Source of the DNA: an uncultured beta proteobacterium
Lineage (GTDB): Bacteria > Pseudomonadota > Gammaproteobacteria > Burkholderiales > Burkholderiaceae_C
Direction of reading: 5' to 3'
Assembly (NCBI GenBank): GCA_903828235.1
Contig: CAIKLM010000155.1
Span: 23,610 to 87,609, forward strand
Length of the DNA: 64,000 bases
Shown: one piece after another, positions 37,200-55,483 of the stretch
Layout: the number at the start of each line of letters is the position of its first letter
Numbering within the stretch: position 1 is the first letter of the stretch
Made by a program: the position numbers and the translations under genes
The notes under the pieces: generated by a model
What the model was told of the DNA's origin: nothing
What the model saw: only the letters and a program-made list of their open reading frames with translations
Databases searched by the model: none

Positions 37200-37618
37200 T
37201 CAGAATCCACCGGGCGACATCACGTCACTGAACGACCGCGCCACCAAGTAACGCGCCGGGTTGTCGCCGACAGCCAGGGCCTTGAAGTGCGCCTTGCCGC
37301 ACTCGATCTTGGCGCTCTCCTTGTTGCGCAGGTCGTCGGTGAACAGGCTGCTCTTGGTCTCGACCACGAAGTACAGGCGCCGGGTGCCGTCCTTGTTCAC
37401 CAGCACGGCCCAGTCGGGGTTGTAGTTGCCCAGCGGGGTGGGCACCTTGAACCAGCCGGGCAGCTTGGCGTAAAGCACCACGTCGTCGTCCTTCTCCAGG
37501 GCGTCGGCGAAGTCGCGCTCGGTGGCCGAGTCGTAGACCACGTGCTTCGAGGCATACAGCGGAGGGGGATCGGCATCGCAGCGGTCGCGGCCATTCAGCC
37601 CGGCGTTGGCAACTCACG
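37200..37618 (-). pseudogene. C-terminal remnant of type III restriction endonuclease subunit R (Res)
   Basis: PPPLYASKHVVYDSATERDFADALEKDDDVVLYAKLPGWFKVPTPLGNYNPDWAVLV..LYFVVETKSS..ESAKIECGKAHFKAL; no helicase portion present. Confidence 0.8.
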
Positions 37619-37934
37619 CTGACGGCGTCCATGCTGTCGCTGGGTCTGGCAACGGCGTGCACCCTGAAGGTCAGCTGCGCGAGGTCCAGCGGCCGCAGGT
37701 AATCGCCATGCTCTAGCCGCGCTTGTCTGGCAGATCGCGGAGGCGCAACCTCTCCGCCGACTCCATGCACTCAACTGCCGCCTGCAACCACGGCAACAGC
37801 ACCGATTTGGGTCGACTTGCCCTGACGTAGCGCGAACATTTCATTCGCCGAAGAGCGCCATGGCAATGGTTCTGCTGGGAAGCGACCGGGAAGCGCTGTC
37901 TATGCGTGGCTGGCACGGCGTTTGCTCATCACGA

Positions 37935-37948
37935 CCTGTCATAACAGG
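37935..37948. promoter_or_regulatory. Candidate GntR/HutC-type operator CCTGT-CATA-ACAGG
   Basis: Palindrome immediately upstream of the first GntR gene; TGTNATAACA core shared with 49784-49795. Confidence 0.55.
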
Positions 37949-37958
37949 CTGCAGATCC

Positions 37959-38729
37959 ATGAATGCTGTTCGCAAGACGCCATCCCAGGACACCGTACAG
38001 AACAAGGTGGTTGCGATGTCGTCGGTACCCATGCACACGCAGATCCGGGAAATCATCCGCCGGCGTGTGCTGGATGGCACCTATGCACCGCACAGCCAGA
38101 TGCCCTCGGAGAGCCAGATGATGGAGGCCTTCGCTGTGAGCCGCATCACCGTGCGGCAGGCACTGGGTGACCTGCAGAAGGAAGGTCTGATCTTCAAGGT
38201 ACCCGGCAAGGGCAGCTTCGTCGCCAAGCCGAAAGCCTTCCAGAATCTCTCGCGACTGCAGGGCTTCGGCGAGGCCATGTCGTCATCTGGCTACGAAACG
38301 TTCTCCCAGGTGCTCAGCATGCGCAGGGTGGCCGCCACGGACATCGTGGCCCGTCGCCTGATGCTCAAGCCGGCCGCGCCGGTCTTCGAAATCCAGCGCC
38401 TGCGTTTCCTGAACCGGGAGCCGATCTCGGTGGACCTGAGCTACTTCCGCCCCGAACTGGGCAAGCGCCTGGCGCAAGAAGACCTGCCGACGCGCGACAT
38501 CTTCCTGATCCTCGAAAACGACTACGGCCTGGCATTGACCCATGCCGACGTGCAGATCGAGGCGATCTCAGCCGACGAAGACCTGGCGCGTCATCTGCGC
38601 ATCGAAGAGGGCTCGCCTCTGCTGCGCATCGAGCGTCTGACCTATGCCAACGAGCAGCCTGTCGACTTCGAATTCCTCTACTACCGCGGCGATGCATTTC
38701 AGTACCGCCTGCGCATCGACCGCACCTAG
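37959..38729 (+). CDS. GntR family regulator with UTRA domain (HutC subfamily), copy 1
   Basis: PMHTQIREIIRRRVLDGTYAPHSQMPSESQMMEAFAVSRITVRQALGDLQKEGLIFKVPGKGSFVAKP. Confidence 0.95.
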   Translation: MNAVRKTPSQDTVQNKVVAMSSVPMHTQIREIIRRRVLDGTYAPHSQMPSESQMMEAFAVSRITVRQALGDLQKEGLIFKVPGKGSFVAKPKAFQNLSRLQGFGEAMSSSGYETFSQVLSMRRVAATDIVARRLMLKPAAPVFEIQRLRFLNREPISVDLSYFRPELGKRLAQEDLPTRDIFLILENDYGLALTHADVQIEAISADEDLARHLRIEEGSPLLRIERLTYANEQPVDFEFLYYRGDAFQYRLRIDRT

Positions 38730-38739
38730 GAGCCACAGC

Positions 38740-40470
38740 ATGAACACCATCTACATGGACTTCGACCTGGTCGTCATCGGCGGAGGCACCGGCGGCCCCA
38801 TGGCTGCCGTGAAAGCCAAAGAGGCCAACAAGAATTTGCGCGTCCTGCTCATCGACAAGGCCAACGTCAAGCGCAGCGGCGCGATCAGCATGGGCATGGA
38901 CGGCCTGAACAACGCCGTCATCCCGGGCCACGCCACACCAGAACAGTACGTCAAGGAGATCACCGTCGCCAATGACGGCATCGTCGACCAGGAAGCGGTG
39001 ATGGCCTACGCCAGCGGCAGCTTCGACATGATCCAGGAACTGGACCGCTGGGGCGTCAAGTTCGAGAAGGACGAGACCGGGGACTACAGCGTGCGAAAGG
39101 TGCACCACTTGGGCGCCTATGTGTTGCCCATGCCGGAGGGGCATCACATGAAGAAGATTCTCTACCGCCAGCTCAAGCGTGCGCGGGTGGAGATCACCAA
39201 CCGCGTCGTCGTCACGCGCGTGCTGACGGGCCCCAGCGGAGAGGTGTCTGCCGTGATGGGCTTCGATTGCCGTACCGCGGAACTGGTCGTGATCCGTACC
39301 AAGGCGGCAGTGATCAGCACGGGCGCAGCGGGGCGCCTCGGCCTACCCGCCTCGGGCTACCTGATGGGCACCTACGAAAACCCCACCAACTGCGGCGACG
39401 GCCACGCCATGGCCTTCCATGCCGGTGCCGACCTGGCCAACCTGGAGTGCTTCCAGATCAACCCATTGATCAAGGACTACAACGGCCCAGCCTGCGCCTA
39501 CGTCACGGGCCCGTTGGGGGGATACACGGCCAACTCCAAAGGGGACCGCTTCATCGAGTGCGATTACTGGAGCGGCCAAATGATGCAGGAGTTCTACAAC
39601 GAACTGCTCAGCGGCAACGGCCCGGTCTTCCTGAAGCTCGACCATCTGGCTGAAGAGACCATCCAGGAGATCGAGACCATCCTGCACAGCAACGAGCGCC
39701 CGAGCCGCGGCCGCTTTCATGAAGGCCGCGGCACCAACTACCGCAAGCAGATGATCGAGATGCACATCTCCGAGATCGGTTTCTGCAGCGGCCATAGCGC
39801 CTCAGGCATTCACGTCAACGCTCGCGGCGAGACGTCCGTCAAGGGCCTGTACGCGGCGGGTGACTGCGCCAGCGTGCCCCACAACTACATGTTGGGTGCC
39901 TTTGTCTACGGCAAGCTGTGTGGCGAGAACGCCGCAGCATATTGCGCCGAGGTCGGCCAGACGGCCCACGACGACGAGGCCGAAGCCGCAGAAGCGGCAC
40001 GCATCCTGGCCCCGCTGCAGCGCAGCGGCGGGCTCACGCCGTACCAGATCGAATACAAGACGCGCCGGCTGGTCAATGACTACCTGCAACCGCCCAAGAT
40101 CACCAGCAAGTACCTGATCGGGCTGCGGCGCTTCGCCGAGATCCGCGAAGACCTGCAGGCGATGTCGGCAGCTGATCCGCATGAGCTGATGCGCGCCATG
40201 GAAGCGCACTCCATCCTTGATTGCGCCGAGATGGCGGCGCGCGCTTCGCTGTTCCGCACCGAGAGCCGCTGGGGCCTGTACCACCACTTCGTGGACCACC
40301 CCGAGCGCGACGACGCCAACTGGTTCTGCCACTCGCTGCTGAGCCGTGACGAAACCGGCCAGATGGCGCTGCGCAAGAAGGCCATTGAGCCCTACATCGT
40401 GCCCGTCGACGACGAAGAGCGTACCGCTTACCAGCGGCTGCGCGTGGCGCCGTCGGCCGAAGCCGCCTGA
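38740..40470 (+). CDS. FAD-binding oxidoreductase, fumarate reductase / adenylylsulfate reductase alpha (AprA)-like
   Basis: FDLVVIGGGTGGPMAAVKAKEANKNLRVLLIDKANVKRSGAISMGMDGLNNAVIPG; GLYAAGDCASVPHNYMLGAFVYGKLCGENAA. Confidence 0.9.
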   Translation: MNTIYMDFDLVVIGGGTGGPMAAVKAKEANKNLRVLLIDKANVKRSGAISMGMDGLNNAVIPGHATPEQYVKEITVANDGIVDQEAVMAYASGSFDMIQELDRWGVKFEKDETGDYSVRKVHHLGAYVLPMPEGHHMKKILYRQLKRARVEITNRVVVTRVLTGPSGEVSAVMGFDCRTAELVVIRTKAAVISTGAAGRLGLPASGYLMGTYENPTNCGDGHAMAFHAGADLANLECFQINPLIKDYNGPACAYVTGPLGGYTANSKGDRFIECDYWSGQMMQEFYNELLSGNGPVFLKLDHLAEETIQEIETILHSNERPSRGRFHEGRGTNYRKQMIEMHISEIGFCSGHSASGIHVNARGETSVKGLYAAGDCASVPHNYMLGAFVYGKLCGENAAAYCAEVGQTAHDDEAEAAEAARILAPLQRSGGLTPYQIEYKTRRLVNDYLQPPKITSKYLIGLRRFAEIREDLQAMSAADPHELMRAMEAHSILDCAEMAARASLFRTESRWGLYHHFVDHPERDDANWFCHSLLSRDETGQMALRKKAIEPYIVPVDDEERTAYQRLRVAPSAEAA

Positions 40471-40514: not shown

Positions 40515-40748
40515 ATGCCACTCGCCACCACCTTGACCCAGGTACCCGTGCGCGTTGACGCCGACAAGTGCATTGCCGACAAGGGTTGCACCGTCTGCGT
40601 TGATGTCTGCCCGCTGGACGTGCTGGCCATCGACCTGACCAGCAAGAAGGCCTACATGAAGTTCGACGAATGCTGGTACTGCATGCCCTGCGAACAGGAC
40701 TGCCCCACCGGCGCCGTGTCGGTGGACATTCCCTACCTGCTGCGCTGA
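40515..40748 (+). CDS. 2x[4Fe-4S] ferredoxin, AprB-like small subunit
   Basis: DKCIADKGCTVCVDVCPLDVLAID..DECWYCMPCEQDCPTGAVSVD. Confidence 0.92.
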   Translation: MPLATTLTQVPVRVDADKCIADKGCTVCVDVCPLDVLAIDLTSKKAYMKFDECWYCMPCEQDCPTGAVSVDIPYLLR

Positions 40749-40759
40749 CGGGGCCCGCC

Positions 40760-41728
40760 ATGACTGCGCCTTCTGCAATGGCCCTGCGTTTGGCCGACCC
40801 TGACGCCACCGTGCGGCGTTTGGCTGTGATGGACCTGCCCTACAGCGACGAGGACGACACCGTTCCCTTGTTGCTGCCCTGTCTGGCCGACAGCGACGCT
40901 CTGGTGCGCATCGAAGCCATCAAGGCCCTCGAGGGCATCGAAGAGCCCGAGGTGGTCAAGGCGCTGGCTCCCATGTTGTTGGATGCCGATACCGAGGTTC
41001 GCAAGGCCGCCGGCACGGTGTTGGCTGAACTGAAGGAGACTGCGTCGGCCGCGCCACTGCTGCCCCTGCTAACGGGCCAACCGCCCGCGGTGCGCGCGCT
41101 GGCCCTGCATGCGGTGCGGGCACTACGCGCCCCTGCGGCCTTTGACCCAGCCCTGCAGTCGCTGCGCGACCCCGATGCCAGCGTGCGCCGTGAGGCCGTT
41201 GGCGTGCTGGGCTACTTGAAAGACCCGGCGGCCATCGGCGAGTTGGCCGAAGTGGCGGCCAACGACCCCGAAGCCGAGGTGCGCCGCATCGCCGTTGGCG
41301 CGCTGGGCTACGCCAGCAGCGTCAGCGTCCTCCCAGCGCTGACGCGGGCGCTGGCCGACGGCGCCTGGATGGTGCGCGAAGAAGCCGCGCAGACCATCGG
41401 CAAGCTGCGCTTGTCACTGGCCATTGCCGACCTGGTTCGCGCCATGCAGGACGACTACTGGCAGGTGCGCGTGAAGGCCGCGCGCAGCCTGGGCCTGCTG
41501 AAGGCCGAGGCCGGCTTGCCCAGCCTGGTGGACTCGCTCACGCACACCATCAGCAACCTGCGCAAGGAAGCCGTGATCGCGTTGGGCGAAATCGGCGACA
41601 CGCGCGCCATCGCACCGCTGGAAGCCGCGCTCGGCGACGGCGATCCGGATGTGCGCAAGCTCGCACGCCTGGCGCTCACGGCCATCGGCCTGGCGCAGAA
41701 GGCCCGGCAACCGGGAGGCGCCGCATGA
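40760..41728 (+). CDS. HEAT-repeat domain protein
   Basis: Repeated units such as [92 protein letters not shown]. Confidence 0.92.
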
Positions 41729-42057
41729 CCTTCGTCGTCACCGAAGCCTGCATCCGCTGCAAGTACACCGACTGCGTCAGTGTCTGCCCGGTGGACTGCT
41801 TCCACGAGGGCCCCAACTTTCTGGTCATCGACCCCGAGGAATGCATCGACTGTGCCGTCTGCGTGCCCGAGTGTCCGGTAAGTGCCATCGTGGCAGATAC
41901 CGACGTGCCCGCCGACCAGCAGGCCTTCATCGAGATCAATTCGCGCTATGCCGCCACCTGGCCCGTCATCAGCCAGGCGGGCACGCCGCTGCCAGACGCC
42001 GAGCAGTGGGCTGACGCCAAAGGAAAGCTGCAGTACCTGTTGGAGGTGCACACCTAG
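41725..42057 (+). CDS. fdxA: Ferredoxin, FdxA-type 7Fe
   Basis: [55 protein letters not shown]. Confidence 0.92.
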
Positions 42058-42202: not shown

Positions 42203-43627
42203 ATGAACCACACCATCTTGAGCCACAGCGCCGCCCTGATGCTGACCGTCGCCCTGACACTGCCCGCCTGGGCACGCCAGGAGGTAGTCATCGGTATTGG
42301 CACCCAGAACACCACCACCAACACCGTGACCGGTGGTGTGGTGCTGAAAGAGCTGAAGCTGATCGAGAAGCACCTGCCCAAGACAGGCAAGTACAAGGAC
42401 ATCAACTTCAAGCTGGATTGGCAGAACTTCACCAGCGGACCGCCCATCACCAACGGCATGATGGCCAAGAAGCTGCACATCGGCATGATGGGTGATTACC
42501 CGCTGCTGGTGAACGGCGCCACGGGTCAAAGCCAGCCCGGCAACGAAACGCAGCTGGTGGCCATCATTGCCTACAACGCCTTCGGCTCGGGCAACGGCCT
42601 GGTGGTCCACAAGGACTCGCCCTACTTCGAGCTGGCAGACCTGAAGGGCAAGAACGTTTCGGTGCCCTTCGGCTCAGCAGCGCACGGCATGCTGCTGCAG
42701 GCGATGCAGTCACGTGGATGGCCTGAGAACTTCTGGAACCTGTCCAGCCAGAGCCCTGAAGTGGGTACCACCAACCTGCAGGAAAAGAAGATCGACGGGC
42801 ACGCCAACTTCGTGCCCTTTGCCGACCTTCTGCCCTACCGCGGCTTCGCCCGCAAGATCTTCGACGGCGCAGAAACCAAGGTGCCCACCTTCCACGGCGT
42901 CGTGGTGCGCAAGGATTTCGCGACCGAGTACCCCGAGGTGGTGGTGGCCTACATCCGGGCGCTGATGGAAGCCAACGCCTGGGTGCGCAGCAACCCCACC
43001 GCCGCCGCCGCCAAGATCGAGGAGTGGACCAAGATCGAGAAGGAGGTGGCCTACCTCTACCTGGGCCCGGGCGGCATCCACACGCTGGACCCCAGCATCA
43101 AGCCGCGTTGGCTGGACACCATCAAGATCGGCCATGAGGTGCTGACCCGGCTGAACCGTGTCAAGCCCCTGGACATCAACGCCTGGGTCAACGAGACCTT
43201 TGTGCGCCAAGCGTTTGCCGCCGTGAAGCAAGACTACGACGCCCAGAAGCAGACGCTCGCCAACTACGACATCACAGGCACCGACCCGCTGTGCAAGACC
43301 GCTGTCACCCGGCCCAAAGAGGCCGGCGAGGTCTGGGCCGAGGGCGTTGCCATCCAGCCGCACGCCTCGACGCTGTGCACACTGGCAGCCATCGGCAAGC
43401 TGCAGGCGTCCGGAAAGAAGTTGCGCGTGGCCTATGTGTACGACAAGGCCCTGGGCATCAAGGTGTTTGCCGACAAGGCGTTTTATGCAGCGAACGCGGC
43501 CGACCCCAAGAAGCCAGTCATCGTGCCATTTCTGTTGAAGAAGGACGCCGAGGCACACGCAACCAGCATCGGCGGCAAGCTGGTGGGCTACGCCGAGGCC
43601 GTGGCCCTGGCGACAGTGCCTTTCTGA
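42203..43627 (+). CDS. ABC transporter substrate-binding protein (NMT1/SsuA-like) with C-terminal NosL-like extension
   Basis: Signal peptide; SBP core (GMMGDYPLLVNGATGQ, DLKGKNVSVPFGSAAHGMLLQAM); C-term KLRVAYVYDKALGIKVFADKAFYAANA..VPFLLKKDAEAHATSIGGKLVGYAEAVA. Confidence 0.8.
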   Translation: MNHTILSHSAALMLTVALTLPAWARQEVVIGIGTQNTTTNTVTGGVVLKELKLIEKHLPKTGKYKDINFKLDWQNFTSGPPITNGMMAKKLHIGMMGDYPLLVNGATGQSQPGNETQLVAIIAYNAFGSGNGLVVHKDSPYFELADLKGKNVSVPFGSAAHGMLLQAMQSRGWPENFWNLSSQSPEVGTTNLQEKKIDGHANFVPFADLLPYRGFARKIFDGAETKVPTFHGVVVRKDFATEYPEVVVAYIRALMEANAWVRSNPTAAAAKIEEWTKIEKEVAYLYLGPGGIHTLDPSIKPRWLDTIKIGHEVLTRLNRVKPLDINAWVNETFVRQAFAAVKQDYDAQKQTLANYDITGTDPLCKTAVTRPKEAGEVWAEGVAIQPHASTLCTLAAIGKLQASGKKLRVAYVYDKALGIKVFADKAFYAANAADPKKPVIVPFLLKKDAEAHATSIGGKLVGYAEAVALATVPF

Positions 43628-43645: not shown

Positions 43646-44650
43646 ATGAGCACCTCGCCCTTGCGCCCCTTGTCGGTTGACGCGAGTGCGGCCGACCCTG
43701 TGCCGGCGCCTTCGGCGGCTGACGCTTCGGATCTGCCGCATGCACCAAAGGCAGCGGCTGTCATCGCCTTGGCGCCGGTGCAGGCTGCGGAGACGGCAGC
43801 ACGGCCTGGCATCGCGCATCAGGGCGCGACCAGGGCGCGCGGGGCACAGCTGCGCGCGTGGCTGATGCAGCATGGGGTTGGCAGCCTGCTGGGCGCCTGC
43901 TCCTTGCTGGCCATGGTGCTGTTCTGGCACCTGGCTACGACCTACCGCTGGGACTTCTACATCCGCTTCACCAACCTGCCCACGCCGATGGAAGTGGCGA
44001 CACAGTTGGGCAAGGCGATGGACAACACCAAGTTCATCACCAACGTGGGCATGAGCCTGCGGCGCATCGCCATCGGCTTTGCAGTGGCCACGGTGCTGGG
44101 GGTCGGCTTGGGCCTGCTCATCGGCCGGTACCGTTTGCTGCGCCAGCTCATGTTTCCAGCCATCGAGGCGCTGCGCCCGATTCCTGCCATTGCCTGGGTG
44201 CCCATCTCCATCATGCTGTGGCCCGACAACGAGGTGAGCATTATCTTCATCACCTTCATCGGTGCGTTCTTCCCAATCCTGCTGAACACCGTGTCAGGGG
44301 TGCAGGCGGTGGATGCGGTGCTGCTGCGAGCCGGCCAGTGCCTCGGTGCCCGTGAACCGCAGCTGATGTCGCAAGTGGTGCTGCCCGGCGCTGCGCCGCA
44401 GGTGTTCACCGGCCTGGCGGTGGGCATGGGTGTGGCCTGGGTGTCGCTGATCGCTGCCGAGATGATCTCCGGCCAGTTCGGCGTGGGCTACTTCACCTGG
44501 GAGGCCTACTCCCTGATCTCTTACGCCGACATCGTGCTGGGCATGATCACCATCGGCGTGCTGGGCCTGGGTTGCAGCTGGCTGATCCGGGCAGCCGGCC
44601 GCTGGTGCATGCCCTGGCTCGTCTACAGCAAACCTGGAGGCCAACCATGA
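43646..44650 (+). CDS. ABC transporter permease (SsuC/TauC-like)
   Basis: LRRIAIGFAVATVLGVGLGLLIGRYRLLRQLMFPAIEALRPIPAIAWVPISIMLW. Confidence 0.94.
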   Translation: MSTSPLRPLSVDASAADPVPAPSAADASDLPHAPKAAAVIALAPVQAAETAARPGIAHQGATRARGAQLRAWLMQHGVGSLLGACSLLAMVLFWHLATTYRWDFYIRFTNLPTPMEVATQLGKAMDNTKFITNVGMSLRRIAIGFAVATVLGVGLGLLIGRYRLLRQLMFPAIEALRPIPAIAWVPISIMLWPDNEVSIIFITFIGAFFPILLNTVSGVQAVDAVLLRAGQCLGAREPQLMSQVVLPGAAPQVFTGLAVGMGVAWVSLIAAEMISGQFGVGYFTWEAYSLISYADIVLGMITIGVLGLGCSWLIRAAGRWCMPWLVYSKPGGQP

Positions 44651-45552
44651 ACAGCGCCTTGAAATCGCCGGCGCATGCCAGCGACCTCAACAGCAAACCC
44701 GCCCATCGCGGAGAGATTGAGCTGAAGAACCTGTCGATGTCTTTCGGACAGGGTGCCAGCCAAGTGGTGGCTGTCAAGGGCGTGAACCTCACCGTCGCAC
44801 CGGGCGAGTTCGTCTCGATCATCGGCCCCTCGGGTTGCGGCAAGAGCACGCTGTTGAACGTGGTGGCCGGGTTCACGCCGCCCACCGAAGGTCAGGCCTT
44901 GCTGGACGGCGTGCCCATCACCGGGCCCGGGCCCGGACGCGGCGTCGTGTTCCAGCAGTACTCGCTGTTCCCGTGGATGAGCGTGCGCAAGAACGTCGAG
45001 TTCGGGCTCAAGATGCAGGGCGTGGCGGCCAACAAGCGCGAAACCACGGCGCGCACGCTGCTCGGCCTGGCGGGCCTGCTGGCCTTTGAAAACCACTACC
45101 CCGACCAGCTCTCAGGTGGCATGAAGCAGCGCGTGGGCATCGTGCGTGCGTTAGCCACCAGCCCGCAGGTGATGCTGATGGATGAGCCCTTCGGCGCGCT
45201 GGACGCCCAGACCCGCGTGGTGATGCAGCAGATCCTGACCAACATGTGGCAGAAGTTTCGCCTGTCGGTGCTGTTCATCACCCACGACATCGAAGAAGCC
45301 ATCTTCCTGAGCGACCGCGTGTTCGTGATGACCGCCCGCCCCGGTCGCATCAAGGCCGAGTTGCCCATCCCGCTGCCGCGCCCGCGCACCGCCGAGATGA
45401 TGTCCTCGGTCGAGTTCATCCAGATCCTGCACAAGCTGCGCAACCTGATCCGCGAGGAGAGCCTGGCGGCCATGGGCCATGAGCTGGACGCTGGCGGGCT
45501 GGAGGGTTTTGCGACCGAGGTCGGCCCCTCTGGTGTGCAGCAGCTGGTGTAG
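44647..45552 (+). CDS. ABC transporter ATP-binding protein (SsuB/TauB-like)
   Basis: IIGPSGCGKSTLLNVVAGF (Walker A), LSGGMKQRVGIVRALATSPQVMLMDEPFGALDAQTR. Confidence 0.97.
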   Translation: MNSALKSPAHASDLNSKPAHRGEIELKNLSMSFGQGASQVVAVKGVNLTVAPGEFVSIIGPSGCGKSTLLNVVAGFTPPTEGQALLDGVPITGPGPGRGVVFQQYSLFPWMSVRKNVEFGLKMQGVAANKRETTARTLLGLAGLLAFENHYPDQLSGGMKQRVGIVRALATSPQVMLMDEPFGALDAQTRVVMQQILTNMWQKFRLSVLFITHDIEEAIFLSDRVFVMTARPGRIKAELPIPLPRPRTAEMMSSVEFIQILHKLRNLIREESLAAMGHELDAGGLEGFATEVGPSGVQQLV

Positions 45553-45627: not shown

Positions 45628-46611
45628 ATGCTGACGTTCCAACGACGACTGTTGTCAGCCGTCATTTGCCTTACCGCTTTGGGTCTGTGCCCAACCGTCA
45701 TGGCGCAAGAGAAGCTCACTCTGGCACAGAACCAATCACCGATTTCCGGCGTGGCCATCGTGGCCAAGCAGAAGAAGTTCTTCGAGAAACATGGCCTGGA
45801 CGTGACGGTGGCCAACTTCACCACCGGCAAGCAGTGCCTGGACACCGTGGTGGGTGGTGGCGCCGACATTGCGACCACTGCCGAGGCGCCAACGACGGCC
45901 GCCGCCATGTCTGGCCAGAAGATCGCCTTCCTGGCACGCATCAACCACTCGGACCTGAAGACGCTCACGGCCGCCTCCGCGGGCATCAAGTCGGCCCAGG
46001 ACCTGAAAGGCAAGCGCCTGGCTTACACCGCCGGCACCGGTGGCGAGGTCTACAGCCTGGCGCTGCTGAAGAAGGCTGGCCTTGGCAAAGACGATGTGCA
46101 ACTGATCAACCTGCGACCGCAGGACATGGTGAACGCGATGGCCAGCGGCAGCATCGACGCCTACAACACGTGGGAGCCGCATATCACCAACGGCAAGAAG
46201 ACGCTGGGCGCAAAGGTGGCTGAGATCGACACCCGCGGCGTGTATGCCGAGACCTTCAACATCGTGGTGATGCAGGACCTGCTGACCAAGCGCAGGCCGG
46301 CTGTCCAGTCTTTCCTGAGAGCACTGATCGAGGCTGAGGAGTGGATCAAGGCCAACCGCGAAGAGAGCATCGGCATCATTGCCGACTTCGTGGCCATGAA
46401 GCGCGAGGACTTGGCTGCGGTGTATGACAACTTCGTCTACGACGTGGTCCTGGATGACCGAACCTTGAATGTGCTGAACCAGCACGCCGCATGGCGGCTG
46501 TCCAGCGGCAACGCGCCCACTGGCGCCACGATGCCTGACTTCCGGAAGGTGATCGTTGCCGAGCCGCTCAAGAGCATTGCGCCGACGCGCGTGAAGCTGG
46601 CCGGTCTGTGA
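45628..46611 (+). CDS. ABC transporter substrate-binding protein (NMT1/THI5-like)
   Basis: VAKQKKFFEKHGLDVTVANFTTGKQCLDTVVGGGADIATTAEAPTTAAAMSGQKIAFLA. Confidence 0.93.
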   Translation: MLTFQRRLLSAVICLTALGLCPTVMAQEKLTLAQNQSPISGVAIVAKQKKFFEKHGLDVTVANFTTGKQCLDTVVGGGADIATTAEAPTTAAAMSGQKIAFLARINHSDLKTLTAASAGIKSAQDLKGKRLAYTAGTGGEVYSLALLKKAGLGKDDVQLINLRPQDMVNAMASGSIDAYNTWEPHITNGKKTLGAKVAEIDTRGVYAETFNIVVMQDLLTKRRPAVQSFLRALIEAEEWIKANREESIGIIADFVAMKREDLAAVYDNFVYDVVLDDRTLNVLNQHAAWRLSSGNAPTGATMPDFRKVIVAEPLKSIAPTRVKLAGL

Positions 46612-47384
46612 GTTCGACGATGGCTTCGGCGAAGCCCGACGCACCACGTCTGGCGGCTTGGCTTTCGCTGCCGCTCTTCTTCATGGTGTGGCAGCTGGTG
46701 TCGATGTCGGGCTGGGTCAATGCCAGCCTCTTTCCACCGCCGACCGCGGTGCTGAAGGCCCTGTGGACCTGGCTCACCGACGGCCCATTGCTGCGCGACC
46801 TGGGCATGAGCGTGTCGCGCATCGTCATCGGCTTCATGGCCGGTGCCCTGGTGGGCATCGCCACCGGTGTGCTGACGGGCTCCACACCCTTGGCGGCCGG
46901 GTTGCTGGCACCGGTGTTCCAGTTGCTGCGGCCGATTCCGCCCATCGCCTTTGTTCCTTTGGTGATCCTGTGGTTCGGACTGTCTGAGTGGGGCAAGTGG
47001 TTTCTGGTGTTCTGGGGCGTGTTCTTCACGGTCTGGGTGTCCACACACCTGGGCATCCAGCGGGTCGACCCGATCTGGCTGCGGGCCTCGCAATGCCTGG
47101 GTGCACCGCGCCGGGCGCAGTTGCTTCAGGTGATGCTGCCGGCGGCGCTGCCCACGGTACTGGTCGGGTTGCGCACGGCCGTGGGTGTCTCGTTCTACAC
47201 GCTGGTGGCAGCGGAGCTGGCAGGCACCTTCTCGGGTGTGGCTTACCGCATCGAGATTGCTCACCAGAACATGCAGACGGCCCAGATGATGGGCGGGCTG
47301 CTGGTGCTTGGCGCCTTGTCTTCGCTGGCCGACCGGGGCTTTGCCTGGCTGTCGCGCCGGTGGGTGTGGTGGCAAGGCTCTTGA
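46608..47384 (+). CDS. ABC transporter permease (SsuC/TauC-like), second
   Basis: VSRIVIGFMAGALVGIATGVLTGSTPLAAGLLAPVFQLLRPIPPIAFVPLVILWFGLSEWGK. Confidence 0.94.
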   Translation: MSSTMASAKPDAPRLAAWLSLPLFFMVWQLVSMSGWVNASLFPPPTAVLKALWTWLTDGPLLRDLGMSVSRIVIGFMAGALVGIATGVLTGSTPLAAGLLAPVFQLLRPIPPIAFVPLVILWFGLSEWGKWFLVFWGVFFTVWVSTHLGIQRVDPIWLRASQCLGAPRRAQLLQVMLPAALPTVLVGLRTAVGVSFYTLVAAELAGTFSGVAYRIEIAHQNMQTAQMMGGLLVLGALSSLADRGFAWLSRRWVWWQGS

Positions 47385-47439
47385 GCCTGTAGGCCATGGT
47401 CTGTCAACAAGCACTCGAGCAACTGGGTCTGCCATCGCC

Positions 47440-47781
47440 ATGAGTCCCGCCATCCCCACGGCCATCACCGACCACCGCGCCAGTGGGGTGCTGGAAATTG
47501 CCTGGTCCGACGGCACGCTTAGCCGCCTGGGCCACGGCCTGCTGCGCGAAAGCTGCCGTTGCGCCACCTGCGAGCAGCAACGGCGGCACGGCGCCGGCGT
47601 GCCGCCTTCAGACACCACCCTGCGCGTCGTGTGCATCGAGCCGGTGGGCGAGCAGGCCCTGACCCTTGGCTTCAGCGATGGCCATGACCGCGGCATCTAC
47701 CCCTTTGTCTACCTGCGCCAACTGGGCGCGTCTTGCAGCCAACCTACACCATGTCCCACTCCGGCCTCGAACGTGTATTGA
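47440..47781 (+). CDS. DUF971 (GBBH-like N-terminal) domain protein
   Basis: LEIAWSDGTLSRLGHGLLRESCRCATCEQQRRHG..VEPVGEQALTLGFSDGHDRGIYPFVYLRQL. Confidence 0.88.
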   Translation: MSPAIPTAITDHRASGVLEIAWSDGTLSRLGHGLLRESCRCATCEQQRRHGAGVPPSDTTLRVVCIEPVGEQALTLGFSDGHDRGIYPFVYLRQLGASCSQPTPCPTPASNVY

Positions 47782-48527
47782 ACGTTCATCATTGGAATGA
47801 CACGCTGTTCAGCTTTCGCACCACCCGCGACCCTGCACTGCGCTTTCGCAACGGGCACTTCGTGATGCTGGGCTTACCCGTCGAGGGCAAGCCATTGCTG
47901 CGCGCGTACAGCGTGGCCAGCGCCAACCATGACGAACACCTCGAGTTCCTGAGCATCAAGGTACCCAACGGCCCGCTGACCTCGCGTCTGCAGCACCTGC
48001 AGCCGGGCGATGAGCTCATCGTCGGGCGCAAGCCCGTAGGCAGCCTGGTGGTGGACGACTTGCGCCCGGGGCGGCATCTGTACCTGCTGTCCACGGGTAC
48101 CGGGCTGGCGCCGTTCATGAGCATCATCCAGGACCCCGAAACCTACGAGCGCTTCGAGAAGGTGGTGTTGATCCACGGCGTGCGCCTGGTCAGCGAGCTG
48201 GCCTACGCCGAATTCATCGAAAACGGCTTGCCGAAGCACGAGTTCCTGGGCGAACTGGTGCGCGACAAGCTGATCTACTACCCCACGGTCACGCGCGAAG
48301 CCTTCCGCCACCAGGGCCGCTTGACCGAGGTGATTGCTTCCGGCCGCCTGTCTGAAGACATCGGCCTGCCGCCACTCGACCCCGCTCACGACCGCGCCAT
48401 GATCTGCGGCAGCCCGGCCATGCTGGCCGACAGCTGCAGCCTGCTCGACGCGCGCGGCTTCCAGATCAGCCCACGCCAGGGCGAGCTGGGGGACTACGTC
48501 ATCGAACGCGCCTTCGTCGAGAAGTAG
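47751..48527 (+). CDS. fpr: Ferredoxin--NADP reductase (Fpr-like)
   Basis: LRFRNGHFVMLGLPVEGKPLLRAYSVASANHDEHLEFLSIKVPNGPLTSRLQHLQPGDEL; LSTGTGLAPFMSIIQDPETYERF. Confidence 0.94.
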   Translation: MSHSGLERVLNVHHWNDTLFSFRTTRDPALRFRNGHFVMLGLPVEGKPLLRAYSVASANHDEHLEFLSIKVPNGPLTSRLQHLQPGDELIVGRKPVGSLVVDDLRPGRHLYLLSTGTGLAPFMSIIQDPETYERFEKVVLIHGVRLVSELAYAEFIENGLPKHEFLGELVRDKLIYYPTVTREAFRHQGRLTEVIASGRLSEDIGLPPLDPAHDRAMICGSPAMLADSCSLLDARGFQISPRQGELGDYVIERAFVEK

Positions 48528-48536
48528 CCGACTGCC

Positions 48537-49643
48537 ATGACCGCCGGGGACACGCAGGCGCCCGAACCGCCAGTGCAAGAGCGGCTTGAAAGGCCCCAGG
48601 TGTTGGCGCCAGGCGGGCCGCGCAGGCTGGCTGCCCGTTGGCTAGCTTGGCTGGCTGCACGCTGGCCCGGGCTGCTGCTGTGCGCGGTCATCGCCATGGC
48701 CGCCAGCCTCATCTCGCGCTTGCACGGTGGCCCGCAGCTGATGTATGCCTTGCTGCTGGGCGTGGCTTTCCACTTCCTCTATGCCGACCAGCGCATCCGA
48801 CCCGGGGTTGAACTGGCCACAGGCTTGGTCTTGCGACTGGGGGTGGCCTTGCTGGGCGCACGCATCACTTTGGATCAGATCGCCGCGTTGGGTTGGGGCA
48901 CCGCAGGGGCGGTGATGGCCTGCGTGCTGAGCACCGTGCTTGTGGGCGTCGGTCTGGCCCGCCGGCTCGGGCTGAGCCCAGCGCAGGGCTTCTTGTCCGG
49001 CGGGGCCACCGCCATTTGCGGTGCGTCTGCCGCATTGGCCATCGCAGCTGTGCTGCCGCGGGGTCGCGAGCAGGACCGGTTCACGCTTTTGGTGGTGGTG
49101 GCGGTCACCGCGCTTTCCACCGTTGCGATGCTCGTCTACCCGCTGATCGCGCACGCCTTGCAGTTGTCGCCCGCGCAGGCAGGTCTGTTTCTAGGCGGCT
49201 CGATCCACGATGTAGCGCAGGTGGTGGCTGCGGGCTACCTGTTGGGCTCCGAAACCGGCGACACGGCCACCCTGGTGAAGCTGTTCCGTGTGGCCTTGCT
49301 CGCGCTGGTGGTGGTGGCTGCGGCTACCGCCTTCCGCCCTGCTTTAGAAGACCACGGCTCCGATGCAAGACCAGGACTGCTGAAGCTGGTGCCCTGGTTC
49401 CTGTGGCTGTTCATGCTGTTGGTGCTGCTGCAGTCGGTACACGCCCTGCCGCCTGCGGCGCTGCCCGTGGTCAGCGAGGTCTCGCGCGACTGCCTGGTGG
49501 TGGCCATCGCCGCGCTGGGCATCAAGACATCTTTCCAGGCCTTGTTCCAGACCGGCTGGCGGCCGTTCGTTCTGCTGCTCGTCGAAACCCTCTGGCTGGC
49601 TGTGGCCTTGCTGGTGGCGGTGCTGATCGGGCTGCCGCGCTAA
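48537..49643 (+). CDS. YeiH family putative sulfate exporter
   Basis: GVELATGLVLRLGVALLGARITLDQI, LSGGATAICGASAALAIAAVLP, GGSIHDVAQVVAAGYLLG. Confidence 0.93.
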   Translation: MTAGDTQAPEPPVQERLERPQVLAPGGPRRLAARWLAWLAARWPGLLLCAVIAMAASLISRLHGGPQLMYALLLGVAFHFLYADQRIRPGVELATGLVLRLGVALLGARITLDQIAALGWGTAGAVMACVLSTVLVGVGLARRLGLSPAQGFLSGGATAICGASAALAIAAVLPRGREQDRFTLLVVVAVTALSTVAMLVYPLIAHALQLSPAQAGLFLGGSIHDVAQVVAAGYLLGSETGDTATLVKLFRVALLALVVVAAATAFRPALEDHGSDARPGLLKLVPWFLWLFMLLVLLQSVHALPPAALPVVSEVSRDCLVVAIAALGIKTSFQALFQTGWRPFVLLLVETLWLAVALLVAVLIGLPR

Positions 49644-49783
49644 GCACGTCCAAGGTGCGCTTGCACCTGTTAGGCGCTGGCCGCCACGTGAGCTGGTGCA
49701 CCAGACAGCGCAGCACCCCGAGAAAGCCCCTCAGAAGACGCCGCTGGGCGCGTCTTGGCACTGGCACGAAATTGGCTAGTCAC

Positions 49784-49795
49784 TTGTTATAACAA
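49784..49795. promoter_or_regulatory. Candidate GntR/HutC-type operator TTGTTATAACAA
   Basis: Perfect palindrome 37 bp upstream of the SBP ATG; TGTNATAACA core shared with 37935-37948. Confidence 0.55.
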
Positions 49796-49832
49796 CTTGA
49801 ACGCCATCCCAAAAACTCAACCCGAGGTTCAC

Positions 49833-50846
49833 ATGAGCAAACGTCTGTTCAGCTTCATCTTCTCGGTCTTGTGCATGCTGGCTTCAGCCGGCGTCCAGGC
49901 CCAGGGCAAACCACTGCGTATTGGCTTCCAAACCGGCGACATCAACGTGCTGTTGATGTACGCCAGCCAGACGGGCCAATTCGCCAAGCAGGGCATCGAA
50001 CTCAAGATGACACCCTTTCCTGCAGGTCCGGCCATGCTGCCGGCCCTGGCCGCAGGCGAAATTGACTTCGCGTGGATGGGTGAATTCCCGGCTGTCACCG
50101 GTTACTCCAACGGCATGCCCATCGAGATCCTGATGATGGAGCGCTTGGACTTCACCAACGTCCGCCTGGTGGTGAACCCGGCCTCCGGCATCCAGAAGCT
50201 GGCCGACCTGAAGGGCAAGAAGGTGGCCGTGTCCGTCGGCTCGACCAGCCACAACCACCTGCTCAAGGCCTTGGCGCCAGCCGGCCTGAAGCAGGAGGAC
50301 GTGACGATGGTCAACCTCTCGCCGGCCAACATGCCCCCAGCCTATGTGGCGGGCCAGGTGGATGCGGCGCTGACATGGGAGCCCAACGTGGGCTTGATGG
50401 AGAAGGCCGGAGCGCGCCCGATCGCCAGCACCCAGAGCCTGGGCATGATCACCGGCGGCATCTGGGTCGCGCGCCAGGCCTTCACCAAGGACAACCCCGA
50501 GACCGTCCAGGCCTTCCTGAAGGTTTGGCGAGACGCGCAGAAGGCCTATGCCAGCAACCCTGGCGATGTGCGCCAACACGAGGCCAAGCGGGTCGGCCAG
50601 ACCGCACAGGAGTTCGATGCCCTCATCGCCCGACAGACCGCCAGCCACCCGAGCTTCGAGCAACTGCTCACGGCCGATTTCATGGGCCCACCGGGCAAGG
50701 AGCTCGACTCCCGCCTGATGAAGCACCTGCAGGGCATCGGTGCCTTCCTGGTGTCTGAAAAGCGCATCAGCGCAGCCCCATCTGACTGGACGCGGCTGTT
50801 CAACACCCGGCCGCTTCAGGAGTTCCTGCGCGCTGAGAAGAAGTAA
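49833..50846 (+). CDS. ABC transporter substrate-binding protein (SsuA/TauA-like)
   Basis: LRIGFQTGDINVLLMYASQTGQFAKQGIELKMTPFPAGPAMLPALAAGEIDFAWMGEFPAVTGYSNGMP. Confidence 0.93.
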   Translation: MSKRLFSFIFSVLCMLASAGVQAQGKPLRIGFQTGDINVLLMYASQTGQFAKQGIELKMTPFPAGPAMLPALAAGEIDFAWMGEFPAVTGYSNGMPIEILMMERLDFTNVRLVVNPASGIQKLADLKGKKVAVSVGSTSHNHLLKALAPAGLKQEDVTMVNLSPANMPPAYVAGQVDAALTWEPNVGLMEKAGARPIASTQSLGMITGGIWVARQAFTKDNPETVQAFLKVWRDAQKAYASNPGDVRQHEAKRVGQTAQEFDALIARQTASHPSFEQLLTADFMGPPGKELDSRLMKHLQGIGAFLVSEKRISAAPSDWTRLFNTRPLQEFLRAEKK

Positions 50847-50884
50847 AGCACAGGGCCGACCTTTCACCACCGACAGACACCACC

Positions 50885-52186
50885 ATGAGCACCGCAGAAT
50901 TCCCGAACTTGACGCCCCTGCAACGCCAGATCGTGCAGAGCATCCGCCATGAAGATTGGCTGGCGCTGACTCAGGAACTGGTCGTCACCGGCCAGCCGGA
51001 TTCGGAGAACCCGCTGGACCCGGACATGCCCTCCGGCTCCGAAGAGAAGATCGCACTGCTGGTGGCCGACAAGCTGCGGCAACTCGGTCTGGACGTCAGC
51101 TTGCATGCCAAGCAACCGGGTCGGCCGAACGTCATCGGCACGTGGAATGGGGCGCAGCCAGGGCCCACGTTGATCTTGAACGACCACCTGGATGTCTACC
51201 CCGCGGGTGATCCAACGGGCTGGACCGCCACTGGAGGCAACCCCTATGCACCCACCGTCACCGGCGACCGGCTCTATGCCCGAGGCACCTCCGACACGCG
51301 GGGCAACCTGGCCTGCACCCTGCTGGCCGTGAAGGCCTTGCGCGATGCCGGCGTCGAACTGCACGGCACGCTCAAGTGCATCTACACGGTCGACGAAGAG
51401 AAGCATGGCCCCAACGGCGCCATCTACCTGCTGGAAGAACTGGGCATCACCGCCGACTACGAGATCACGGCCGAGCCCAGTGGTTGGACACGCGCATCGG
51501 GTGAGTGGGGCATCGGCATTGCCGTGGCTCACTCGGGCAATTGCCTGATCGAGTTGCGCACCGAAGGCACCAAGTCACACCTGTGGCGGCCGGATACCGG
51601 CGTGAACGCCATCAGCAAGATGGCCACGTTGATCGGCGCGCTCGAGAAGCTCCCGCTAACCCATCCGAAGCCTGAGCTCTATGGAGGAACGCAGCCGATG
51701 GTGTGCTTCACCCGGCTGCGCGCGGGGGTCCCGCGAGAGATGCAGTTCACACCCGCGGAATGCACCGCCATTGCCGCGGTGGTGGGTCTCGTCCCCGGCA
51801 TGACGATGGACTCCATCCTGCAAGACGTACAACGCGAGATCGATCGGCTGGCCGCAGCCGATCCCACGCTGGTCGCCAGCGTGCGACAGGTGCCCAACTC
51901 CTTGTTCGTTCCCGCAACCTTGGAGGTACCCACAACGCAGGAGCCCGTGGCATCCTTGACCCAGGCCTACCGTCAGGTCCTGGGCGAGGCGCCGGCGTAC
52001 TACCGCAAGAACGCCTACTGCGACACCATCCGCTTCTCGCATGCCGGCATTCCGTCGGTGACTTTCGGGCCCGGCGAAGACGGGTGGCCGCCCACCAACG
52101 AGTACATCCACACGCCCAAGGCGGTGCCGGCCGCCCAGGTCATGGCGTTGGCAATGCTGCGGCTTCTGGGTGCCGAAGATGCCTGA
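50885..52186 (+). CDS. M20 family metallohydrolase (ArgE/DapE type)
   Basis: PTLILNDHLDVYPAGDPTGW, LYARGTSDTRGNLACTLLAVKALRDAGVELHGTLKCIYTVDEEKHGPNGA. Confidence 0.93.
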   Translation: MSTAEFPNLTPLQRQIVQSIRHEDWLALTQELVVTGQPDSENPLDPDMPSGSEEKIALLVADKLRQLGLDVSLHAKQPGRPNVIGTWNGAQPGPTLILNDHLDVYPAGDPTGWTATGGNPYAPTVTGDRLYARGTSDTRGNLACTLLAVKALRDAGVELHGTLKCIYTVDEEKHGPNGAIYLLEELGITADYEITAEPSGWTRASGEWGIGIAVAHSGNCLIELRTEGTKSHLWRPDTGVNAISKMATLIGALEKLPLTHPKPELYGGTQPMVCFTRLRAGVPREMQFTPAECTAIAAVVGLVPGMTMDSILQDVQREIDRLAAADPTLVASVRQVPNSLFVPATLEVPTTQEPVASLTQAYRQVLGEAPAYYRKNAYCDTIRFSHAGIPSVTFGPGEDGWPPTNEYIHTPKAVPAAQVMALAMLRLLGAEDA

Positions 52187-53018
52187 TGCCGAACTGGAGA
52201 GCGCCCGCCGACAGCCCGACTTCGACGCTGCGATTCCCGGGTGTACCGAAACGCCGCGCGAGGTGCTGAGGTTCGACCGGGTCGGCCTCTCGTACGACAG
52301 TCGCCCGGTCCTGCAGGACCTGTCGTTCTCGGTGAAGGCGGGCGAGACGGTCGCTCTGTTGGGGCCCTCGGGCTGCGGCAAGACCACGTTGTTGAACATC
52401 GTGGCCGGCTTCCTCAAGCCCAGCGCGGGCGTGGCCTTGTGCAACCAGCGTGAGATTGCCGGTCCGGGACCGGACCGTGGGGTGGTGTTCCAATCCTATG
52501 CACTCTTCGACTGGATGACGGTCGAGGACAACATCGCCTTCAGCCTGCGCTGTGCCGGGCGTCCAAGGGCTGAGCAGCAGGACGTTGCCCGCCGCATGGC
52601 TGCATTGGTCGGGCTGGCAGGCTTCGAGAAGTCGTACCCATACCAGCTCTCTGGCGGCATGCGTCAGCGCTGCGGGCTGGCGCGCGTGCTGGCCGCCGGC
52701 CCCAGCGTGATGCTGATGGACGAACCATTTGCCGCCGTGGACGTGCAAACCCGCGAGACTTTGCAGGAAGAGATCCTGCGCATTCAGGCCACAACCGGTT
52801 GCACCATTCTCTTTGTCACCCACAGCATCGACGAGGCCGTGTTCTTGGGCAGCCGGATCTTTCTGATGTTGAAGGGCCGCCTCGGGGCCTTTGACGAATT
52901 CGCGGTGAACCTGCCGCTGCCCCGTGAGCAGAGCGACAACCGCCTGCACGCCGAGTTTCTATCTGTTCGTGAACGTGTTTACCGTGCCATGCGTCATGCG
53001 CCCGGCAAAGAACACTGA
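52179..53018 (+). CDS. ABC transporter ATP-binding protein
   Basis: LLGPSGCGKTTLLNIVAGFLKPSAG, LSGGMRQRCGLARVLAAGPSVMLMDEPFAAVDVQTR. Confidence 0.97.
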   Translation: MPDAELESARRQPDFDAAIPGCTETPREVLRFDRVGLSYDSRPVLQDLSFSVKAGETVALLGPSGCGKTTLLNIVAGFLKPSAGVALCNQREIAGPGPDRGVVFQSYALFDWMTVEDNIAFSLRCAGRPRAEQQDVARRMAALVGLAGFEKSYPYQLSGGMRQRCGLARVLAAGPSVMLMDEPFAAVDVQTRETLQEEILRIQATTGCTILFVTHSIDEAVFLGSRIFLMLKGRLGAFDEFAVNLPLPREQSDNRLHAEFLSVRERVYRAMRHAPGKEH

Positions 53019-53026
53019 GGCCTTTG

Positions 53027-53842
53027 ATGAGCTCCACCTCCAGCCCGGTCCCGGGCAATTCCACTGAGCGACGCGAACGCCTTGCCTACCTCGTCCTGGC
53101 GGCTCTATCGCCGTTGTTCCTGCTGGGGGTGTGGGTGCTGGCCACGCAGCAGGGTTGGGTGCGCAGTGTCTTGCTCCCCAGCCCGGCTGACGTGTTCACC
53201 ACGCTGCAGGAGATGGTCACGCAGGGCTATGGCGGCATTGGCCTGGCAACGCACATTGGTGCCAGCCTGATGCGCGTAGGCACGGCCTTTGTGGCTGGAT
53301 CGCTGCTGGGCATCACCATCGGCATGTTGCGTGGACGCGTGGCGCCCATCGATGCCCTCTGGCTGGTGCCGTCCGAACTCTTGCGCCCGATTCCGCCGCT
53401 GGGCTTGATTCCCTTGTTCATCCTCTGGTTCGGCATCGGCGAGATGTCCAAGATTCTGCTGATCTTTCTGTCGGTGTTCCTGATCATGATGATCAATGCC
53501 CAGGCCGGCGCCCGCAGTTGCGGACAAGACGCATTGCGTGCAGCGCAGACGTTGGGCGCCAATCGGATCCAGATCTTCCGACATGTCGTGCTGCCATCGG
53601 CGTTGCCACAGATCGTGACCGGCCTGCGGGTGGCGCTGGGCACCGCGCTGTCGATCCTGGTGGCATCGGAACTGCTAGGAGGCGACCGCGGGCTTGGCTT
53701 CATCGTGCTCGATGCGAGCAATTTCTTCCGCACTGCGCATGTGTTTGCAGGCATCGCGATCATCGGCGCGATCGGGCTGATCAGCGACAGGTCCCTTGCC
53801 ACCCTTGGGCGGCGGTGGGTTCACTGGGAGGGCAAGCGTTGA
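53027..53842 (+). CDS. ABC transporter permease
   Basis: LMRVGTAFVAGSLLGITIGMLRGRVAPIDALWLVPSELLRPIPPLGLIPLFILWFGIGEMSK. Confidence 0.94.
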   Translation: MSSTSSPVPGNSTERRERLAYLVLAALSPLFLLGVWVLATQQGWVRSVLLPSPADVFTTLQEMVTQGYGGIGLATHIGASLMRVGTAFVAGSLLGITIGMLRGRVAPIDALWLVPSELLRPIPPLGLIPLFILWFGIGEMSKILLIFLSVFLIMMINAQAGARSCGQDALRAAQTLGANRIQIFRHVVLPSALPQIVTGLRVALGTALSILVASELLGGDRGLGFIVLDASNFFRTAHVFAGIAIIGAIGLISDRSLATLGRRWVHWEGKR

Positions 53843-54618
53843 GCGCGCAGCCTCGGCTGAAGCCCGCCCGGCGCATGGTCGGTGCAGCCGCCTTGCCGTT
53901 TCACGCTCAAGTGCGGGAATCGCTGCGTGCCCGCATCCTGGACGGCAGCTGGCTGCCCGACCAGCAGTTGCCTTCGGAGCACGAGATGACGGCGCTGTTC
54001 GCCGTCAGCCGCATCACTGTCCGACAGGCCTTGCAAGACCTGCAGAACGAGGGGCTGATCTACCGCCTTCACGGCAAAGGCACGTTCGTCTCGCGCCCGC
54101 ACGCCACGCAGGACCTGGTGCGACTGCAAAGCTTTGGCGAGGCCATGCGGCCGTTGGGCTATCAGACCTTCAACAAACTGGTCAGCGTGCGCGATATCGC
54201 GCCTCCCGCCGCCGTGGCAGAGCGCATGGGCACCAAACGGGGCAGCCAAGTTTGCGAGATCACCCGGGTGCGATTCCTGAACAAGGAGCCGGTGTCACTG
54301 GACATCAGCTACTTCGCATTGCCGATAGGACGCCGGCTGGCATCGCATGACCTGACTGGCCGCGATCTCTTCGTCATCCTCGAGCAGGACCTCGGGCTGC
54401 GGCTCGGCCACGCTGAAATGGTCATCGGCTCACAGCTCGCCGAGGAAGGCCAAGCTCGTCTGTTGGGTCTGCAACCAGGGGCAGCGCTGCTGCATGTCGC
54501 CCGCCTCACCTGTGACGACAAGGGCCACCCTTTGGTCTGCGAGCACCTGTTCCATCGAGGCGACTCGTATCACTACCGCCTCCGCGTGGATCGCAACGTG
54601 CCCCCCGGGGCAGCTTGA
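53839..54618 (+). CDS. GntR family regulator with UTRA domain, copy 2 (start uncertain: TTG 53839 or ATG 53875)
   Basis: PFHAQVRESLRARILDGSWLPDQQLPSEHEMTALFAVSRITVRQALQDLQNEGLIYRLHGKGTFVSRP. Confidence 0.93.
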   Translation: MSAQPRLKPARRMVGAAALPFHAQVRESLRARILDGSWLPDQQLPSEHEMTALFAVSRITVRQALQDLQNEGLIYRLHGKGTFVSRPHATQDLVRLQSFGEAMRPLGYQTFNKLVSVRDIAPPAAVAERMGTKRGSQVCEITRVRFLNKEPVSLDISYFALPIGRRLASHDLTGRDLFVILEQDLGLRLGHAEMVIGSQLAEEGQARLLGLQPGAALLHVARLTCDDKGHPLVCEHLFHRGDSYHYRLRVDRNVPPGAA

Positions 54619-54650
54619 GAAAGAGGGCATACGGGTCACAATCGGCGGTC

Positions 54651-55376
54651 ATGTCGGCCAGAGCCACGACCCGGAAACAGAGCGGCGCCCAGTTTCAACA
54701 GGCCACGCTGCTGGCCGCCGAAGCCGCAAACGCTGCGCTTCCGCCCAATCTGCTCGCTCGCCTGAGTGATCCCGCGCGGCAGGCCGTCCTGGCGCTCGGC
54801 CGTCGCCGCGACTATGCCGCCGGTGATCTGCTTTTCCGGCAGGGCGATCATCACGACGGCGTCTTTCTCATCGATGAAGGACTGGTGCGATCCTGCTACC
54901 TGTCCGAAGACGGCCGCGAGCTGACGTTGGGCTACTGGACGGCCGGGCACTATGTGGGTGCGCCACAGATGTTCGGCGGCGGTCGCCACGCGTGGACGTC
55001 GGCGGCGGAGTCGGCGACCCGCTGCCTGTGGCTGCCGGGCCCGCAGCTGCGCACCCTGGCGTTGGAATGGCCTGAACTGGCGCTGGCGCTGATCGACGCA
55101 CTGGTGCACAAGTCGCAGTGCTACTGTGCACTGCTGCAGCTGCTGGCAACACAGTCGATGCGCACACGTCTGGCGAGACTGCTGACCATGCTGGCTGCGC
55201 GTGAGGTCGGCTCATGCACCCAGCTCAGCCACGGTCAGATGGCCAGCATGATCGGCTCGACGCGCCAGTGGGTCTCGCAGACCCTGGCACGCTTCGCTGA
55301 GGAAGGCTTGATCGTCAAGGAATCCGATGGCGGGATCCGCGTGACCCAGCCGCAACGGCTGGCCCAACTGCGTTGA
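54651..55376 (+). CDS. Crp/Fnr family transcriptional regulator
   Basis: cNMP-like fold (YAAGDLLFRQGDHHDGVFLIDEGLVRSCYLSEDGRELTLGYWTAGHYVG) and HTH (LSHGQMASMIGSTRQWVSQTLARFAEEGLIV). Confidence 0.92.
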   Translation: MSARATTRKQSGAQFQQATLLAAEAANAALPPNLLARLSDPARQAVLALGRRRDYAAGDLLFRQGDHHDGVFLIDEGLVRSCYLSEDGRELTLGYWTAGHYVGAPQMFGGGRHAWTSAAESATRCLWLPGPQLRTLALEWPELALALIDALVHKSQCYCALLQLLATQSMRTRLARLLTMLAAREVGSCTQLSHGQMASMIGSTRQWVSQTLARFAEEGLIVKESDGGIRVTQPQRLAQLR

Positions 55377-55483
55377 AGGCGCGCGTCGGGCGCGAGCTGC
55401 AATTAGTTGCTGGTCCGGGGAAAGCCGAGCCGAGACACTTCTTCTAGGCGGGCGTTTTCCCGTGGCAACGAAGAGGCTTTCCC

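Follow-up and report, generated by a model that had tools for sequence, protein, structure and literature searches.

In a window of 64,000 nucleotides from an uncultured beta proteobacterium (contig CAIKLM010000155.1; all positions refer to this whole stretch of analysed DNA), a cluster of co-directional, closely packed genes extends from 37.9 to 45.6 kb. They encode, in this order, a GntR/UTRA regulator, a flavoprotein, a 77-aa ferredoxin, a HEAT protein, FdxA, the substrate-binding protein (SBP) of an ATP-binding cassette (ABC) importer, a permease and an ATPase, and the one gap of 145 bp lies upstream of the SBP gene. The SBP is fused to a C-terminal domain with the fold of NosL (PF05573), the copper chaperone of nitrous oxide reductase, and we refer to the fusion protein as SBP-NosL. 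Its open reading frame (ORF) is complete and comprises 474 codons from the ATG plus the stop codon (Table 1).

The N-terminus of SBP-NosL is a plausible Sec-type signal peptide ending in ...LTLPAWA, in which no lipobox cysteine was found upon inspection of the translated sequence. Pfam places NMT1-type domains at residues 62-270, and by NCBIfam the protein belongs to the SsuA superfamily (TIGR01728, E=2.2e-33, residues ~26-345), with 115.8 of the 163.5 bits required for the curated family. The predicted model of the full-length protein (predicted local distance difference test score, pLDDT, 93.1; predicted template modelling score, pTM, 0.89) has TauA and SsuA as its top structural matches (E=7e-21, ~300-350 aligned columns). 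As modelled, the receptor part has the TauA/SsuA fold, sulfonate binding being a prediction only, and the pTM of 0.89 suggests a fixed arrangement of the domains. SBP-NosL shares with the TauA/SsuA systems a permease and an ATPase of the matching type, but differs from them by an identity of only ~20%, by scores below the cut-offs and by the additional NosL-fold domain of 120 residues.

Residues ~352-474 form a genuine NosL-fold domain. When compared as a single sequence with the Pfam NosL model, SBP-NosL reaches E=0.027-0.028 and 15.2 bits (cut-off 24), so that the assignment needed evidence at the level of the family. All of the 49 aligned family C-termini match the model (best 4.9e-10), as do 18 of 18 members of the cysteine-less subfamilies described below (best 2.4e-8), and some relatives attain the cut-off (26.0 bits for L009, 26.3 bits for G224/L143). 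One protein flagged above the cut-off in a class-wide search for the NosL family, G224:C9, was recognized in a later search as an SBP-NosL homologue. Alignment of the 49 C-termini with 30 genuine NosL proteins by hhalign gave a probability of 98.0% (E=1.9e-13, 104 columns), and the cysteine-less set aligned with NosL at 98.7% (E=4.2e-16). Furthermore, a profile of the family C-termini, searched against the PDB with E-values up to 10, retrieved four chains, all of them NosL (2hpu, 3.1e-4). An AlphaFold2 model built from the 49-member C-terminal alignment (pLDDT 95.4) was used for a Foldseek search, where five NosL chains rank before noise (top match 7og7, E=6e-5, TM score 0.68). Thus, the fusion of a NosL domain to an SBP is real. 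The preliminary description of this locus, made from the sequence alone, had proposed both the NMT1/SsuA-type core and a NosL-like C-terminus on a periplasmic ABC binding protein, and both proposals are confirmed.

The copper site of NosL consists of a CXM motif and a second conserved methionine, without a universal histidine (PMC6530538). Both methionine columns are invariant in the genuine NosL proteins aligned here (30/30). Among 121 SBP-NosL proteins, methionine is never found at the CXM position, and just seven carry any methionine within residues 429-443, where the second one would be expected. Since both invariant methionines are absent across the family, the canonical copper function of NosL is, judged by these residues, lost in SBP-NosL. 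C364 aligns with the CXM cysteine, and C392 stands where the STRD/STRE stretch of NosL has Asp or Glu. Both cysteines are present in 100 of the 121 members, which make up the main clade, and both are missing in the other 21, while no member has a single one. The cysteine-less proteins, cyanobacterial members among them, retain the NosL-fold domain. In 56 of the 100 cysteine-bearing members C364 and C392 are the sole cysteines of the protein, a pattern that, for a periplasmic protein, points to a disulfide or alternatively to a two-cysteine metal site. SBP-NosL is thus like NosL in its fold, its overall domain, the cysteine at the CXM position and its periplasmic location, and unlike it in the fusion to an ABC receptor, the missing methionines and lipobox, the extra C392 and the sulfur-type operon without nos genes. 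As noted before, there is no nosZ nearby: no nos gene was found among the SBP-NosL neighbours read, and a search of the own genome found no stand-alone NosL. A search of the same genome for nosZ was likewise empty, but its control gave no match either, so that the statement holds for the neighbourhood rather than for the whole genome.

The features of the locus are compiled in Table 1. No sigma-70 promoter-like site was found, and terminator-like sites occur at chance level.

Table 1. Features of the SBP-NosL locus; positions are those of the window.
Feature	Position	Strand	Remarks
GntR/UTRA regulator	37860..38729	+	first of cluster; start codon uncertain
FAD flavoprotein (PRK08275)	38740..40470	+	nearest solved relative PAPS reductase alpha, next AprA; usual annotation fumarate reductase
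77-aa two-cluster ferredoxin	40515..40748	+	AprB/PAPS-reductase-beta-like
HEAT-repeat protein	40760..41728	+	matches C-terminal part of flavoprotein-HEAT fusion PRK13800
Ferredoxin FdxA	41725..42057	+	NF045490, above cut-off
SBP-NosL fusion	42203..43627	+	474 aa; signal peptide ~1-25, SsuA/TauA-type binding domain ~26-345, NosL-fold domain ~352-474
NosL-fold C-terminal domain	43256..43624	+	residues ~352-474 of SBP-NosL
ABC permease (SsuC/TauC/NtrB-like)	43646..44650	+	18 bp 3' of SBP gene
ABC ATPase	44647..45552	+	best models SaoA/TauB/NtrD, all below cut-off; 4-bp overlap with permease gene
GBBH-like_N/DUF971 protein	47440..47781	+	in module of 40/58 full-flank loci
Ferredoxin-NADP reductase-like protein	47751..48527	+	in 25/58 full-flank loci
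YeiH-type (PF03601) membrane protein	48537..49643	+	in 11/58 full-flank loci

The top model of the ATPase, SaoA, belongs to the selenocysteine-assisted organometallic (SAO) system, which likewise has a sulfonate-type ABC transporter. However, the scores for SaoA (263.8 of 360 bits), SaoP (142 of 295) and SaoX (19.6 of 300) are all below the cut-offs, and neither an SaoL-type lyase nor a selenoprotein was found among the window neighbours scanned. A relation of the C-terminal domain to the organometal lyases MerB/SaoL, considered because of the match to SaoA, was rejected as profile and fold searches gave NosL only and the Sao scores remained below the cut-offs. The region downstream of the cluster (45628-56470) looks like an uptake island for sulfur compounds and organic anions. 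More genes of sulfonate-type transport are found in it: a second SBP with permease (45628-47384), a third SBP (49833), an M20 peptidase (50885), an ATPase with permease (52170-53839), a TctC receptor and regulators of the GntR and Crp types. Upstream, a short ORF on the minus strand (37200-37541) matches the RE_endonuc domain (PF19778, 3.6e-35) and is probably a restriction enzyme fragment.

Homologues were collected from the own family, the class, the phylum, GTDB contigs and plasmids. The fusion had first been regarded as unusual; it is in fact widespread, with hundreds of homologues in Proteobacteria and on cyanobacterial plasmids and with a conserved operon around them. No relative of SBP-NosL was found in the viral contigs searched. 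At least 566 relatives were confirmed on GTDB contigs, and the best 80, which are the closest relatives and not a random sample, were analysed; 58 of these loci have full flanks and are the basis of the context counts. The permease is present in 58 of 58. Flavoprotein, small ferredoxin and HEAT protein occur together in 44 loci, and the remaining 14 have a sulfatase; no locus has both or neither. The reductase set also accompanies SBP-NosL in 19 of 20 further genomes picked for diversity and on cyanobacterial plasmids, where in two cases (L148, L151) genes for an Mrp/NBP35 Fe-S carrier and a long LysR-type regulator lie by the flavoprotein set. The tree requires three changes between reductase and sulfatase contexts. 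The sulfatases carry the formylglycine motif CTPTR, and they are probably cytoplasmic, because most of their ORFs begin only a few residues ahead of the conserved core and leave no room for an export signal. A formylglycine-generating enzyme (FGE) and a SulP transporter adjoin the sulfatase in an annotated Paraburkholderia case and in Bradyrhizobium loci; of the two variants of the cluster, only that with the sulfatase was seen to include FGE (12705-13709 in L122, 14608-15480 in L146). Concerning the labels of individual sequences, the SBP-NosL of Frankia sp. RB7 (L135) is nested in a Bradyrhizobium-like clade, which suggests that the assembly is mislabelled or contaminated or that the gene was transferred very recently, and two loci from metagenome-assembled genomes labelled Bordetella parapertussis (L081, L082) cluster with those of other Burkholderiales.

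The flavoprotein, which contains flavin adenine dinucleotide (FAD), is by sequence comparison related to the alpha subunits of 3'-phosphoadenosine 5'-phosphosulfate (PAPS) and adenosine 5'-phosphosulfate (APS) reductases rather than to fumarate reductase: among solved relatives it matches PAPS reductase alpha of Methanothermococcus best (1.5e-58), followed by AprA (1.3e-36) and fumarate reductase (2.5e-26). Matches to AprB (6e-9) and to PAPS reductase beta (2.1e-5) were obtained for the small ferredoxin, with polyferredoxins scoring higher. In the PAPS reductase of Methanothermococcus thermolithotrophicus, alpha is an FAD protein of the fumarate reductase family and beta a two-cluster ferredoxin, and an FAD-sulfite adduct has been proposed for catalysis (PMC10322725). 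As with this enzyme and AprAB, the gene for a two-cluster ferredoxin adjoins that of the FAD alpha-type protein here; unlike in those systems, the beta-type protein is far shorter than AprB and the pair shares its operon with a HEAT protein and an ABC importer.

We propose, with a probability of about 0.58, that the locus encodes an importer for an organosulfur compound (a sulfate ester or sulfonate), the cargo of which is desulfurised reductively or hydrolytically, and that the NosL-fold domain has been repurposed without copper. SBP-NosL would be the periplasmic receptor of this sulfonate-type ABC importer. Its cargo would most likely be a sulfate ester or a related sulfo compound, and most simply a sulfate ester because a cytoplasmic sulfatase replaces the reductase beside the same importer. 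The flavoprotein and the small ferredoxin would free the sulfur of the cargo as sulfite for assimilation, with electrons reaching the pair via FdxA and ferredoxin-NADP reductase, and in some lineages the formylglycine sulfatase would take over from them. The NosL-fold domain may be a fixed accessory on the receptor for ligand recognition or permease docking, or possibly for its stabilisation; this role is the least certain part of the proposal. In members of the main clade, C364 and C392 would be joined as a structural disulfide under the oxidising conditions of the periplasm. In Pseudomonas, AtsRBC is a sulfate-ester ABC importer adjoining an arylsulfatase, and the likeness of the SBP-NosL module to it is one of description only. 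More tentatively, and on balance still doubtful to us, the module may represent a widespread and so far unrecognised sulfur-scavenging pathway, in which sulfate esters or sulfonates, taken up by an importer with a NosL-fold receptor, undergo reductive cleavage to sulfite by an APS-reductase-like flavoenzyme, without ATP activation and interchangeably with a hydrolytic sulfatase.

Several points weigh against this proposal. Its substrate and activity are predicted ones, the receptor and transporter genes score under every substrate-specific cut-off, and the likeness of the flavoprotein to APS reductase is one of overall sequence similarity. C364 is kept at the position of the NosL cysteine and may be a remnant of a metal site or part of an altered one. 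The disulfide is proposed from the cysteine pattern, which the tree built from the receptor part explains by a single event; the all-or-none presence of the cysteines is therefore compatible with their coupling but weak evidence and no independent proof of it. Finally, the module was not found in the literature searched, most subscription journals being outside its scope.

Alternatively, the domain could hold a working metal site, in which C364 and C392 bind a soft metal such as Cu(I), and the receptor could import a metal complex or pass the metal to a periplasmic partner. The alignment of C364 with the NosL cysteine and the joint retention of both cysteines in 100 of 121 members would fit such a site, as would the match of the ATPase to SaoA of a proposed organometal system and the presence in the minority context of the maturase FGE, a copper(I)-dependent enzyme. 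We nevertheless consider it unlikely, since both NosL-invariant methionines are lost and the 21 members without the cysteines keep the domain and, where the neighbourhood was read, mostly the operon too. Moreover, the residues conserved in nearly all members (W378, S389, D414, K420 and F443) are not typical soft-metal ligands, the main operon has no copper enzyme, the score for SaoA is below its cut-off, and a gene of the SaoL type was not found in the neighbours examined. Together with the sulfur-acquisition context, these results speak against the metal-linked capture or maturation first suggested for this locus.

It also appears improbable that SBP-NosL is the receptor of an ordinary sulfonate or nitrate-type importer with a fumarate-reductase-like cluster as a mere neighbour. 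Annotation pipelines do label the flavoprotein as a fumarate/succinate subunit, and the model PRK08275 scores 1059 bits on it, but its association with the importer in 44 of 58 loci, in 19 of 20 diverse genomes and on cyanobacterial plasmids, the closer match to PAPS and APS reductases (1.5e-58 and 1e-36 versus 2.5e-26) and the sulfatase in its place elsewhere argue against a chance vicinity. A chance likeness of an ordinary SBP extension to NosL, compatible with the sub-cut-off score of the single sequence, is refuted by the matches of every family member, the profile-profile alignment (E=1.9e-13) and a fold search that gave only NosL and no ordinary SBP lobe.

Each part of the organosulfur import module proposed here is known as a kind, whereas the same literature yielded no account of their combination, of how widely it is conserved or of the exchange of enzymes; the two-domain architecture may already be listed in Pfam, as some members exceed the NosL cut-off. 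A copper-delivery fold has apparently been reused in a nutrient receptor, minus its copper ligands, and SBP-NosL marks a common, apparently undescribed operon of soil and water bacteria, for which the exchange with a sulfatase provides a direct and testable clue to the substrate. If an APS-reductase-like enzyme indeed acts on imported organosulfur, this would be an unrecognised bacterial route to the sulfur of soil organic matter, and the genes that at present carry the label fumarate reductase would be due for renaming.
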